From an uncultured Erysipelotrichaceae bacterium (GTDB taxonomy: Bacteria > Bacillota_I > Bacilli_A > Erysipelotrichales > Coprobacillaceae): a DNA stretch of 34,440 nt. Shown here one piece after another: positions 22,555-29,242 of this stretch. The stretch's first letter is position 1, and every line of letters starts with the position of its first letter. The stretch covers positions 1-34,440 of the forward strand of contig CATOPA010000005.1 of the NCBI GenBank assembly GCA_951801965.1, written 5' to 3'. The notes beneath the pieces are model-generated. The model saw nothing but the letters and a program-made list of their open reading frames with translations, was not told the origin of the DNA and did no database searches. A program made the position numbers and the translations under genes.

Positions 22555-24024
22555 CTATTTATCTTCACCATTAGAAAGACATACTTTCTGATAATAGTAG
22601 AATGAATCTTTCTTGTATCTTTGATATGTTCCATGACCTTCATCATCAACATCTACATAAATAAATCCATAACGTTTACGAATTTCTCCTGTTCCAGCAC
22701 TGACAAGATCAATACATCCCCATGTTGTATATCCCATTAAATCTACACCTTCATCTATAGCTTCGCTCATTGCTTCTATATGACTTCTATGATAATCAAT
22801 ACGATATGGATCATGAATTGAACCATCTTCTTCTAAAACATCAATAGCTCCTAAACCATTTTCACAGTTAAATAATGGAATTTGATAACGATCATAGAGT
22901 TCATGCAAGAAGAACTTCAATCCTTTTGGATCTTTTGCCCATCCCCAATCACTCACTTCAAGATATGGATTTTTTACTCCACCAATCAAATTACCACCAA
23001 TCATCTCAGCACCATCATTATGAATTGTTACAAGATTTGTAAAGTAATATGAAAATTCTAAAAAGTCTACTTTTCCATTTTCTAAAATCTTGGCATCTTC
23101 TTCACTCACAGTGATGTTGATACCTAATTCTTTCCATAAACGTTTGGCATATGATGGATAATGTCCACGTACAAAAGTATCTGCGCAATAATAGAATTTA
23201 TCTTGCATACTCTTTTGATTCAATTCTTGATCATAAGGATCACAAGTATATGGGTGTGTAAAGATTCCAGCAACCATACAACCTATTTTCTTTTGAGGAT
23301 AATGATCATGTAAATATTTGACAACCTTTCCACTTGCTATGAATTGATGATGTAAACGTGTATAAGCATCTTGGATTTCTGCAGTCTGACTTTCATCAAT
23401 AATTGTAAATTGAGCTGCATTGATTTCATTAAATGTACTCCAATAAGTGACCTCATCTTTATATTCATCAATAGCAAATTTTCCAAATTGATAAAAGTCT
23501 TCAATCAGTTGTCTATTAAGCCAGCCATTCATTTCAGTAATATAAAATGCTGGCATATCATATTTGTATAAATGAACTAATGGTTCAATACCATACTTAT
23601 GACATTCTTGAAAGACGTTATGATAAAAATTGACTCCTTCTTGATTGACTCCACCTTCAATACCATAAGGGAAAATTCTAGCCCATGATAGAGTTAAATT
23701 CAAAGCTTTAAAACCCATTTCACCAAATAAAGCAATATCTTCTTTATAATGATGATAAAAGTCTGTTGCTTTATGATTAGGATAAAATTCACCTGGTATA
23801 CAAGCTAATTTTGCACCTTTTGGCAAATTCACATTTTCAATAGATGCGACTGTTTTACCGTAACTTCCATCTGGCATCTGATAAGTCGCCATACGTGGTG
23901 TATCTTTTGTTCCACCAAGTTGATAATCAGTCATATTTGGTGATTTTCCACCTTCATTCCAGCCACCTTCAGCTTGGTTAGCACTAATATCTCCACCCCA
24001 TAAAAAATTCTTAGGAAAACTCAT
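22555..24024 (-). CDS. GH1 6-phospho-beta-glycosidase-like, type A, LYKYDMP variant (copy 1)
   Basis: 489 aa, start with AAGGAGG nine bases upstream. GH1 features: [14 protein letters not shown] at the N-terminus, acid/base E200 in STFNEIN, nucleophile E388 in [24 protein letters not shown]-terminal [17 protein letters not shown] gives the Ser, Lys and Tyr that bind the 6-phosphate in this subfamily. The usual His of YHWDLP is replaced by K154 in LYKYDMP. That His contacts the sugar ring in the -1 subsite, so the preferred ring or modification is likely different. Type A marks: [20 protein letters not shown]. It is the fourth and last GH1 of the operon, between two HAD genes. Confidence 0.9.
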
Positions 24025-24027
24025 ATC

Positions 24028-24786
24028 TTATTCCTCCTTATTTCCCTTTTGACATAATATATTGATTGCTTCCTCAATATCTTCCACAATATAATCAGCA
24101 TGATCTTGAATACTTTGAGGAGAACTCAAAAATGTAAATGATGTATCAACAACATCTAACATAGGTAAATCATTATAAGAATCTCCAATACCTGCAATTT
24201 GTTCAAAATGAAAGATTTCTTTTAATTTTATAATAGCCTCTCCTTTAGAACATCCTTTCGCAACAATATCAATAGAATCAACATTCTGAAAGGCTTCTAC
24301 CTCTTGATATTTCTGATTAATTTCTAAAGTAATTTGTGTTGCTCTTTCAACAGTGCTCTCTATTAAAGAAATACTATAAATATCTTCATCTTTCATGTCC
24401 AACACAGAATGAATCTTTGTTCTTTCTCCGTCTTCTTTGATATTTGTGCAATAAAATTTATCTTGTGATAATGTTTGAACAATGAGTTCTGTTTCTTTTT
24501 GATATGTTAAATAAATTTCATGAGCAATATCAAAAGGTACAGTCTTTCCATATAACAAATGATAATCTTTATCTAAAATTGCTCCACCTGTACTCACAAT
24601 AAAAAAATCAGGTTTTAATATCCCTTTCATTGGTCTTAACAAACCTGAAAAAGGTCTACCAGAACAAATACCAAAAAGATGACCATCTTTTTGAAACTCT
24701 TTAATTCTTTTTATATCACTTTCTTTAAAACGCTCACTATTTTTAAAAAATAATGTATTATCAAAATCACTCGCTAAAACGTTCAT
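24028..24786 (-). CDS. Cof-type HAD-IIB phosphatase (copy 2)
   Basis: 252 aa from ATG 24786, with AAGGAGAA before it; the track start lies 17 residues upstream in the spacer hairpin. Motif I is ASDFDNTLF (D7, D9), motif II GICSGR, motif III KGCSKGEAI and motif IV IAGIGDSYNDLPML. The cap domain is again type IIB. It is placed between two GH1 genes, starts 58 bases after the first of these and ends 3 bases before the next. A sugar-phosphate substrate that follows hydrolysis or side-product dephosphorylation is the likely role; not proven. Confidence 0.9.
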   Translation of the reverse strand: MNVLASDFDNTLFFKNSERFKESDIKRIKEFQKDGHLFGICSGRPFSGLLRPMKGILKPDFFIVSTGGAILDKDYHLLYGKTVPFDIAHEIYLTYQKETELIVQTLSQDKFYCTNIKEDGERTKIHSVLDMKDEDIYSISLIESTVERATQITLEINQKYQEVEAFQNVDSIDIVAKGCSKGEAIIKLKEIFHFEQIAGIGDSYNDLPMLDVVDTSFTFLSSPQSIQDHADYIVEDIEEAINILCQKGNKEE

Positions 24787-24810
24787 CTCTTCTCCTTTAA
24801 ATATGAAAGA

Positions 24811-26324: not shown

Positions 26325-27785
26325 TTATAAATCTTCTCCATTTGTTTCTATAACATGTTTATACCAATAAAACGAATCTTTTTTATAACGTTTGAATGTT
26401 CCATGACCTTCATCATCAACATCTACATAAATAAATCCATATCTTTTTGTGACTTGTCCAGTTGAAGCTGCACAAAGATCAATACAGCTCCACATTGTAT
26501 ATCCAAATAAATCCACACCTTCATCAACAGCTTCTTTCATCTTTGCAATATGTGCTTTCATATAATCAACATGATATGGATCATGAATTGAGCCATCTGT
26601 TTCTAATGTATCATGTGCTCCTAATCCATTTTCAACAATCAATAAAGGCATTTGATATCTATCATACAATGTATGTAATGCAGTTTTTAATCCTTCTGGA
26701 TCAATTTGCCATCCCCAGTCACTGGCTTTTAAATAAGGATTTTTCTTTCCTAATGAAATATTCCCTCCCATATTTTCACTATCTGCATGTGTTGTAATAC
26801 AGTTAGAATTATAATAAGAGAATGCAAAATAATCTGCCTTTCCTTTTTGTAGGTCTTCTTTATCCTCTTCAGTGATATTTAAATGAATTCCATGCTTCTT
26901 CCAAATACGTGGAGCAAATGATGGATAATATCCTCTTGCTTGTACATCTGCAGAATAGAAGAACATTTCTTGCATATATGCTAAATTTTCAGCTACATCT
27001 TTTGGATCAGGTGTTAATGGATAAGTGAAAATTCCAGCAGTCATACTTCCAACTAAATAATTCTTATTAATAGAATGAGCAAGCTGCACAGCTCTTGCTG
27101 AAGCTACTAATTGATTATGCAATTCTTCATAAAGCTTTTGCTTATCATAACTTTCTAAAGAACTTCCAATAATTGTGACCACATTAATTTCATTAAAAGT
27201 AATCCAATATTTCACCAAATCTTGATATTCTTCAAAACAAACACGAGCAAACTCAACATATTCATCAATTAACTCTCTATTTGTCCATCCACCCATTTCC
27301 TCAATATAATAAACAGGCATATCATATTTGTATAATGTCACAACAGGTTCAATATTCCATTTTTTACATTCTTCTAAAACATTTCTATAGAAATCCACAC
27401 CTTTTTGATTCACTCCATTTTTCTTACCATATGGAATGATTCTCGCCCAAGAAATAGAAATATTTAAAGCTTTAAATCCCATTTCACCAAAATAAGCAAT
27501 ATCTTCTTTATAATGATGATAAAAGTCTATACCTTCTCTGTTTGGATAAAATTCACCTTCAATTGTTGCATGCTTTGCTCCTTTAGGAAGTTGTGCAGTA
27601 ATTAAACAAGGTATTTTACCATAAGTACCATCACTATTTTGAAAAGTCACTTGACGAGGAGTTGTTGCTGTGGCACCAGTCATATAATCGACTTCTACAG
27701 GTGCTTTTCCATCTTCATCCCAAGCCCCTTCACATTGGGCAGCACTAATATCTCCACCCCATAAGAAATCTTTTCTAAATCCCAT
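26325..27785 (-). CDS. GH1 6-phospho-beta-glycosidase-like, type A, LYKYDMP variant (copy 3)
   Basis: 486 aa. Acid/base E199 in ITFNEIN, nucleophile E385 in LIVENGLG, and SDWGWQIDP before it. The phosphate-site block [16 protein letters not shown] has Ser, Lys and Tyr. K153 in LYKYDMP replaces the GH1 His. Type A marks DISA, GEFYPN and [10 protein letters not shown] are shared with copy 1, and [10 protein letters not shown] is shared with copy 4. It starts two bases after copy 4 and ends 13 bases before copy 2. The only ribosome site is a distant AAAGGATC, so it may be translated by coupling from copy 4. Confidence 0.9.
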
Positions 27786-27787
27786 AA

Positions 27788-29242
27788 TTAATCTAGATCC
27801 TTTCCATCAGATGCAATGACTTTCTTATACCAATAGAATGAATCTTTCTTGATACGATGTAAATCACCAACACCTTCATCATTCATATCAACATAGATAA
27901 ATCCATATCTCTTATCCATTTGTCCAGTTGTGAATGATACTAAATCAATAGGACCCCAAGTTGTATATCCAAAGATATCTACACCTTCTTCTCTTGCTTT
28001 CATCAAGCTTTGAATATGTCCTCTTAAATAATCAATTCTATAATCATCATGAATTGTTCCATCTTCTTCAACTTTATCAAATGCACCCAATCCATTTTCT
28101 ACATCAAAAATAGGTACTTGATATCTATCATATAAGAAATGTAAGAAATATTCATAACCAACAGGGTCAATTTGCCATCCCCAATCACTTGCCTTTAAGT
28201 AAGGGTTCTTCAAATCTGCTGAAGCTCCTGCTGCTCCTAAGGCTTCACCTTCATCTTTATGTGTTGTAATAACATTAGACATATAATAAGAATAAGCTAA
28301 GAAGTCAGATTTTCCTTCTAATAAATCTTTTTTATCTTGTTCTGTAATATCTAATTCAACACCATTTTCTTTCCATAATCTTTTTGCATAAGATGGATAA
28401 TATCCTCTAATCATTGTATCTGCGCAATATCCAAATTTATCTTGGAAAGCCTTATAATTAGCAATAACATCATTTGGATCACAAGTATATGGATAACTAC
28501 AGAATCCTGCAATCATACATCCAACACTGATATTTTTATCAATTTCATGAGCAACTTTCACAGCTCTTGCTGAAGCAACCATTTGATGATGCAATTCTGT
28601 TAAAGAAACTTGTTTTCCTTCTTTTCCTTCAAAATGAAGTAATATGTTAATTTCATTAAAAGTTAACCATTTATCAACTAAATCTTTGTATTCTTCAAAA
28701 CATACACGAGCAAATTCAACAAATTGATGAATCATTTCTCTATTTGTCCATCCACCATATGTTTCTTCTAGATAAACTGGCTCATCATACTTATATAATG
28801 TAATGACTGGATCCATACCATATTTTCTACATTCTTTAAAAACATTACGATAGAATTCTACTCCAGCCTTATTCACTCCACCTTCAACACCATGTGGGAA
28901 AATTCTTGCCCAAGACACAGTTGTATTAAAAGTTGTAAATCCCATTTCAGCAAATAAAGCAATATCTTCTTTGTATCTATGATAGAAATCAATACCAACA
29001 TGATTTGTATATCTTACATCATCAAATAAAACATACTTTGCTCCTTTTGGTAAATGATCAAATTGTCTCATTTTTCCTCTTGTTCCATCTTCATTCAAAT
29101 AATGAATGAAGCGTCTATCCTTAGTTGTCCCTGGATCTCCAAAATCTACTTGTACTGGGCTTTTTCCATCTTCATCCCAAGCTCCTTCACATTGAGCAGC
29201 ACTAATTGAACCACCCCATAAAAACTTATCTGAAAAACTCAT
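27788..29242 (-). CDS. GH1 6-phospho-beta-glycosidase-like, type B, LYKYDEP variant (copy 4)
   Basis: 484 aa, start with AAGGAGG nine bases upstream. Acid/base E197 in LTFNEIN, nucleophile E382 in [17 protein letters not shown], and the phosphate-site [18 protein letters not shown]151 in LYKYDEP replaces the usual His. Type B marks [15 protein letters not shown] and [10 protein letters not shown] link it with copy 2. It is the first gene of the GH1 operon and lies next to rpiR, transcribed away from it, behind the paired operators. Intracellular; acts on phosphorylated glycosides if the family role holds. Confidence 0.9.

Follow-up and report, generated by a model that had tools for sequence, protein, structure and literature searches.

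The closest described relatives of the proteins studied here are the 6-phospho-beta-glucosidases of glycoside hydrolase family 1 (GH1). We analysed a 34,440-nucleotide stretch of DNA from an uncultured Erysipelotrichaceae bacterium of the gut (contig CATOPA010000005.1 of assembly GCA_951801965.1; hereafter the window), which is the entire contig C5 of a host genome (G000) of 2.0 Mb in 197 contigs and encodes four tandem GH1 proteins, numbered copy 1 to copy 4 as in Table 1. The 6-phospho-beta-glucosidases of E. coli (BglA, 2XHY), S. mutans (3PN8, 4F79 and 4GPN) and B. licheniformis (6WGD) share with these proteins their fold (TMq 0.83-0.89), approximately 45% sequence identity, the catalytic glutamates and the Lys and Tyr of the phosphate site. 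The window proteins differ from them in having Asn in place of an Arg beside the nucleophile, Lys in place of a conserved His of the -1 subsite, and a linkage to genes for an AlsE-type epimerase and RpiB. The 6-phospho-beta-galactosidases LacG and Gan1D also belong to GH1 and act on a 6-phosphate glycone, but their substrate is the C4 epimer and they are approximately 35% identical or less to the model.

Two D-allose systems are relevant for comparison. With the alsRBACEK and rpiB genes of E. coli K-12, the locus shares an AlsE-type epimerase, an RpiB of the predicted allose-6-phosphate isomerase type and an RpiR-family regulator, the regulator of the window having the same family name as E. 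coli AlsR/RpiR. In contrast, the E. coli system takes up free allose by an ABC transporter and phosphorylates it with AlsK, and it has no glycosidase. In Listeria monocytogenes, the cassette lmo0734-0739 was shown by gene transfer to confer growth on D-allose; lmo0734-0736 are essential for this growth, loss of lmo0737 slows it, and the GH1 gene lmo0739 is dispensable for free D-allose and was assigned no role by the authors (PMC5893763). Based on the double replacement, the clade that carries it and the linkage to AlsE-type and RpiB genes, we propose that the GH1 proteins with Lys (Lys-type) are likely 6-phospho-beta-D-allosidases.

Coupled replacements in the GH1 active site

All four copies were assigned to GH1 (PF00232, 355-403 bits with a cut-off of 22.6, E values from 1e-106 to 1e-120), and all stayed below every NCBIfam 6-phospho-beta-glucosidase cut-off, the best score being 521 bits compared with 623 for PRK09852. 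An AlphaFold2 model of copy 1 had a predicted local distance difference test (pLDDT) score of 93, and its best matches in the PDB were the 6-phospho-beta-glucosidases 2xhy and 3pn8. The Lys of copy 1 aligned on the His of the LSHF or ISHY motif in the solved 6-phospho-beta-glucosidases 3pn8, 4f79, 2xhy and 6wgd, and the Lys of copies 2-4 fell in the same alignment column. A preliminary description of the window had placed Lys at the conserved His position in all four copies, and its positions (K154, K153, K153 and K151, from copy 4 to copy 1) were exact. We saw no substitute residue for the missing His, and the four best-aligned solved enzymes all have it, as does the fifth GH1 protein of the window (IHFDMP). 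Neither of the two outcomes that the preliminary description named as refuting was thus observed, the comparison covering these solved enzymes and not the whole of CAZy.

The Lys is only half of the change. When the columns of the Lys, Ala and His proteins were compared, the Arg of the FRTSIAW motif (FRTSIAWTR in the reference enzymes) was found to be Asn in every Lys protein, a coupled replacement which had been overlooked in the preliminary description. Among 214 distinct GH1 sequences, the residues in the Arg and His columns were Arg/His in 144, Asn/Lys in 62, Arg/Ala in 7 and Arg/Trp in 1, with no intermediates, and the 62 Lys-type sequences came from several genera and phyla. Judged by the conserved motif, this Arg probably corresponds to R97 of a well-studied insect GH1. 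In the insect enzyme the Arg is 3.6 Å from the nucleophile and the His is 3.0 Å from OH2 (PMC5991390), and the R97A mutant keeps 8e-7 of the normal kcat/Km (PMC5148593). Since so little activity is retained, loss of the Arg is expected to need compensation; in the Lys proteins, the loss is found alongside a new positive charge at the His position.

The same R97A result would also fit pseudo-enzymes, or proteins with another chemistry, in which an essential Arg is simply gone. We consider this extremely improbable, since the Glu residues of the acid/base NE and nucleophile ENG motifs are invariant in all scorable Lys sequences, the Gln, Asn-Glu, Tyr, Glu and Trp positions and the phosphate-site Lys and Tyr are kept, multiple paralogues are maintained with phosphotransferase system (PTS) genes, and the Lys occupies just the position expected of a substitute charge. 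The catalytic residues thus agree with the earlier view that the enzymes look active, and their conservation, together with the presence of the Lys in 62 distinct sequences, argues, as had been suggested from the four copies, against chance or decay. The accompanying claim that all catalytic parts were kept held for the catalytic residues but not for the whole Ser/Lys/Tyr 6-phosphate site, which is complete in copies 1, 3 and 4, whereas copy 2 has Ala for Ser. Among scorable sequences, Ala occupies this first position in 7 of 44 Lys proteins and 6 of 139 His proteins.

In a GH1 tree built without the motif columns, the 25 Lys rows formed one clade with a Shimodaira-Hasegawa-like approximate likelihood ratio test (SH-aLRT) support of 100, nested among His-type 6-phospho-beta-glucosidases, so that the separate Lys clade anticipated in the preliminary description was recovered. 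The three Ala rows formed a separate, distant clade (support 99). Copies 1-4 look like old paralogues and not recent tandem copies, judging from their sequences, because they fall in different Lys subclades and have relatives in other genomes that are approximately 80% identical for three copies and approximately 60% for copy 2. A fifth Lys-type gene of the host is on contig C62, and approximately 28 GH1 places were counted across its genome; many relatives in the host family have 20-40 GH1 matches per genome. Outside this family, Lys forms were found in Streptococcus gallolyticus, Lactobacillus colini, a Clostridiales metagenome-assembled genome (MAG) and Coriobacteria-type MAGs. A long N-terminal insertion was considered as a feature of the Lys clade and dropped, since Lys proteins and neighboring His proteins align across it. 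DNA-pattern matches in three genomes (G025, G052 and G070) lay in unrelated genes and were left out of the counts.

Linkage to AlsE-type and RpiB genes

Genes for RpiB, an Rpe-family epimerase, LacI and the PTS components EIIC and IIB recurred as neighbors of Lys-type GH1 genes, together with DUF7916, DUF4867, DeoC, a ManA-like protein and Gfo/Idh oxidoreductases. RpiB and an AlsE-type epimerase were found together at 15 of 28 Lys loci and at 0 of 72 GH1 loci lacking Lys, counts which are descriptive, the retrieved loci being related and selected in part for having a Lys-type GH1. Across 37 genomes of the host family, an AlsE-type gene was present in 14 of the 16 with a Lys-type GH1 and in 1 of the 21 without (Fisher, 3e-7, a value that overstates independence since loci and genomes are related). 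A fifteenth genome with a Lys-type GH1 (G010) had an epimerase fragment at a contig end. Lys-type GH1 and AlsE-type genes also differed jointly between species inside four genera (g4, g8, g12 and g17). Conversely, 35 fetched loci had the epimerase: 20 of them had a Lys or Ala GH1, 13 had no GH1, and two had another GH1 only, namely the truncated contig of the host and one fragment at a locus edge. The minimal arrangements were IIB-EIIC-GH1(Lys)-AlsE-RpiB in L177 and AlsE-GH1(Lys)-RpiB in L183. DUF4867 and DUF7916 recurred in allose-type loci, the latter for example at 9128-10060 of L308. At L209 (G017:C76), an AlsE-RpiB pair without a Lys-type GH1 was found beside a ROK-type-kinase-like gene and a large GH78-like protein, and this locus may be a free-allose route.

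Nearly all Lys-linked epimerases have the E. coli AlsE motifs PS[LM]MC, PGFAGQ, DGxC and GTSxLF; the four motifs occurred in no housekeeping Rpe examined, nor in E. coli Rpe. In the epimerase tree, E. coli AlsE grouped with the Lys-linked epimerases (support 99/93), apart from E. coli Rpe. The AlsE-type gene of the host is on contig C150, with the gene order that G006 keeps beside the same cluster, and from this order C5 and C150 are probably neighboring contigs. The host has a separate housekeeping rpe and rpiB, the latter on contig C166. The RpiB of the window scored 186.8 bits with TIGR01120 (cut-off 138.65). Against a model of the Lys-linked RpiB proteins, E. coli RpiB scored 218 bits and the housekeeping copy 159; of the two host RpiB proteins, the one in the window is the closer to E. 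coli RpiB by the scores and the RpiB tree, and its substrate is a prediction.

Pentose phosphates are substrates of the RpiB and Rpe families, and relatives of RpiB/LacAB accept several sugars (PMC3755991). The linked genes could therefore serve another sugar, either a gulose-type 6-phosphate (from gulose through sorbose to tagatose phosphate) or a phosphorylated riboside (from ribose-5-phosphate to xylulose-5-phosphate). This is quite improbable in our judgment, because separate housekeeping rpiB and rpe genes are present, the linked epimerases are AlsE-type, no tagatose-phosphate kinase or aldolase (LacC/LacD) was recognized among the recurrent neighbors, the 6-phosphate site of the GH1 proteins is largely kept, and the Listeria genetics point to allose.

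The preliminary description had also suggested a different ring, for example a keto, acid or otherwise modified one. The glycone is probably not plain glucose, but the modified ring found no specific support. The window contains three Gfo/Idh genes, and Gfo/Idh pairs recur in many Lys loci, as would fit a 3-keto or otherwise oxidized 6-phospho-glycoside made by these neighbors, with the Lys contacting the modified ring. However, L063, L095, L177, L183 and L307 have AlsE and RpiB and no Gfo/Idh in view, no keto-specific partner was recognized, and AlsE and RpiB handle non-oxidized sugar phosphates, so that an oxidized substrate appears very improbable.

Listeria loci, which lie outside the loci that had suggested an allose substrate, were checked as a test of whether allose-linked GH1 proteins lack the His. 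In L. monocytogenes NCTC7974, whose genes were matched to lmo0734-0739 by order and annotation, the locus contains LacI, an AlsE-type epimerase, RpiB, a DUF7916-like protein, a beta-glucoside PTS and a GH1 with TLYAYDMP. On the L. seeligeri plasmid pLIS5, GH1 proteins with TLYKYDEP and TLYAYDLP were found around LacI-AlsE-RpiB-DUF4867. At eight other plasmid loci an AlsE-type gene was present and no GH1 was seen, so these neither help nor hurt. Like the Lys-type proteins, lmo0739 is linked to AlsE-type, RpiB and PTS genes and is without the His; it differs in having Ala instead of Lys, in keeping the Arg and in resembling the separate Ala-type GH1 proteins, and its action on an alloside is a prediction. 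That lmo0739 is dispensable on free D-allose is what one would expect if the enzyme acts on the glycoside. By its position, DUF7916 is the counterpart of lmo0737.

Proposed action on 6-phospho-beta-D-allosides

Allose, a rare sugar, is the C3 epimer of glucose, and the axial 3-OH of a beta-alloside lies on the alpha face, from which the nucleophile approaches. In standard GH1 enzymes, the Arg holds the nucleophile and the His binds the equatorial 2-/3-OH in that region. The recurrence of RpiB with an AlsE-type 3-epimerase suggests an unmodified C3 epimer, i.e., allose. In the proposed pathway, the PTS would import a beta-D-alloside (e.g., a plant phenolic or flavonoid alloside) and phosphorylate O6, and the Lys-type GH1 would cleave the product into allose-6-phosphate and the aglycone by the usual retaining two-glutamate mechanism. 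The dedicated RpiB would then convert allose-6-phosphate into allulose-6-phosphate, and the AlsE-type epimerase encoded on C150 would convert the latter into fructose-6-phosphate. The Asn may make room for, or bind, the axial O3, the Lys may keep a positive charge near the nucleophile, and the several old paralogues may serve different aglycones. That the Asn/Lys clade reached this specificity by one rewiring, and the Ala clade (including lmo0739) reached the same specificity independently, is a broader claim that we favor with somewhat less confidence.

Alternatively, the Lys-type proteins could be ordinary or broad 6-phospho-beta-glucosidases in which Asn/Lys is a neutral, compensated replacement that keeps the pKa of the nucleophile and the gluco specificity, the AlsE/RpiB linkage being due to other genes of the clusters. 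The nesting of the Lys clade among ordinary 6-phospho-beta-glucosidases, the kept Gln, Asn-Glu, Tyr, Glu, Trp, Lys and Tyr positions, and the His-type GH1 genes in many of the same clusters are consistent with this. Nevertheless, both residues are otherwise invariant, their joint replacement occurred once and is retained in 62 sequences from several phyla, an independent clade without the His is tied to AlsE-type genes and a proven D-allose cassette, and the minimal loci hold no other GH1. Hence we regard plain glucosidase activity as unlikely.

Besides the relatedness of loci and genomes mentioned above, several observations weigh against the allosidase assignment. Some Lys loci have no AlsE or RpiB in view, in several cases since the contig ends. 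As His-type GH1 genes also occur in Lys clusters, linkage alone cannot pick the GH1 that acts on allosides; Lys or Ala forms stand alone only in the small loci L063, L095, L177, L183, L307 and L308. The Gfo/Idh, DeoC, DUF4867 and DUF7916 genes have no assigned place in the proposed alloside pathway. In the epimerase tree E. coli AlsE is on a long branch, and the L063 epimerase, a homologue scanned in place of the C150 gene, scored 198 bits against the PRK09722 AlsE cut-off of 271, while passing TIGR01163 rpe (226 compared with 212.6). The Lys-linked RpiB proteins were only partially separated in their tree and did not form a single clade. The Arg is retained in the Ala clade, whose solution would therefore differ from that of the Lys clade, and the Ala-type GH1 of the host (L012; C110, 1489-2850; LYAYDLP) adjoins a D-mannonate-dehydratase-like gene and not AlsE.

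Cluster genes, other GH1 variants and significance

The features of the window are collected in Table 1. Copy 3 probably starts at 26311 rather than at the listed open reading frame (ORF) start of 26341, since the upstream start would lie within the final part of the preceding gene.

Table 1. Positions of the Lys-type GH1 genes, their replaced codons and the surrounding genes in the window
Feature	Position	Strand	Basis
Lys-type GH1 copy 1 (LYKYDEP; K151, N106)	27788..29242	-	PF00232; Lys/Asn columns; AlphaFold2 model
Lys151 codon of copy 1	28790..28792	-	alignment
Asn106 codon of copy 1, replacing the nucleophile-flanking Arg	28925..28927	-	column comparison
Lys-type GH1 copy 2 (LYKYDMP; K153, N108; phosphate-site Ala for Ser)	26325..27785	-	PF00232; residue columns
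Lys-type GH1 copy 3 (LYKYDEP; K153, N108)	24845..26311	-	PF00232; residue columns
Lys-type GH1 copy 4 (LYKYDMP; K154, N109)	22555..24024	-	PF00232; residue columns
Dedicated RpiB, predicted allose-6-phosphate isomerase type	33960..34409	-	TIGR01120; bit scores; tree
DUF4867 protein, recurrent in allose/Lys-GH1 loci	33311..33979	-	PF16161
RpiR-family regulator, divergent from the Lys-GH1 genes	29450..30268	+	PF01418 and SIS
His-type GH1, FCEIN replacing FNEIN	31227..32597	-	PF00232; alignment
DeoC-family aldolase, recurrent neighbor	32581..33339	-	TIGR00126, 164.8 bits (cut-off 117.3)
Gfo/Idh/MocA oxidoreductase, recurrent but not universal neighbor	30287..31234	-	PF01408
Gfo/Idh/MocA oxidoreductase, YhhX-like	20562..21587	-	PRK10206, 350.4 bits (cut-off 352)
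Gfo/Idh/MocA oxidoreductase	19568..20581	-	family-library scan
Sugar-phosphatase-like HAD protein between Lys-GH1 genes	24028..24837	-	named from sequence alone; recurs in 5 loci
Sugar-phosphatase-like HAD protein	21730..22530	-	ORF list; named from sequence alone

Three other GH1 variants were observed. In the His-type GH1 of the window, Cys replaces the conserved Asn before the acid/base Glu, a change common to 8 distinct His-type sequences; its position beside the DeoC-family aldolase may point to a C2-modified glycone. A GH1 clade with SLVHFDMP (L196 on C150, and L171) is regularly found beside a ManA-like isomerase and is possibly a 6-phospho-beta-mannosidase. At L021 (C20, 1495-2880), a GH1 has Trp at the His position and Asn for the phosphate-site Lys.

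Allosyl flavonoids and flavones of plants appear in many papers on Stachys and Sideritis, and to our knowledge no gut enzyme has been assigned to plant beta-D-allosides. The open-licence literature searched contained no report of a 6-phospho-beta-allosidase or of helicid or an allosidase in connection with gut bacteria, and no relevant report of a 6-phospho-beta-glucosidase with the Lys. If the proposed function is true, a hydrolase would be named for plant beta-D-allosides, a natural glycoside class, and the 6-phospho-beta-glucosidase gene that has no known role in the Listeria D-allose cassette would be explained. The annotated records examined label the genes glycoside hydrolase family 1, rpe and rpiB, which masks the pathway. 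The Lys-type proteins also provide a natural example of the replacement, by a coupled change, of an Arg whose removal leaves a model GH1 almost inactive, which would be useful for understanding and engineering glycone specificity.

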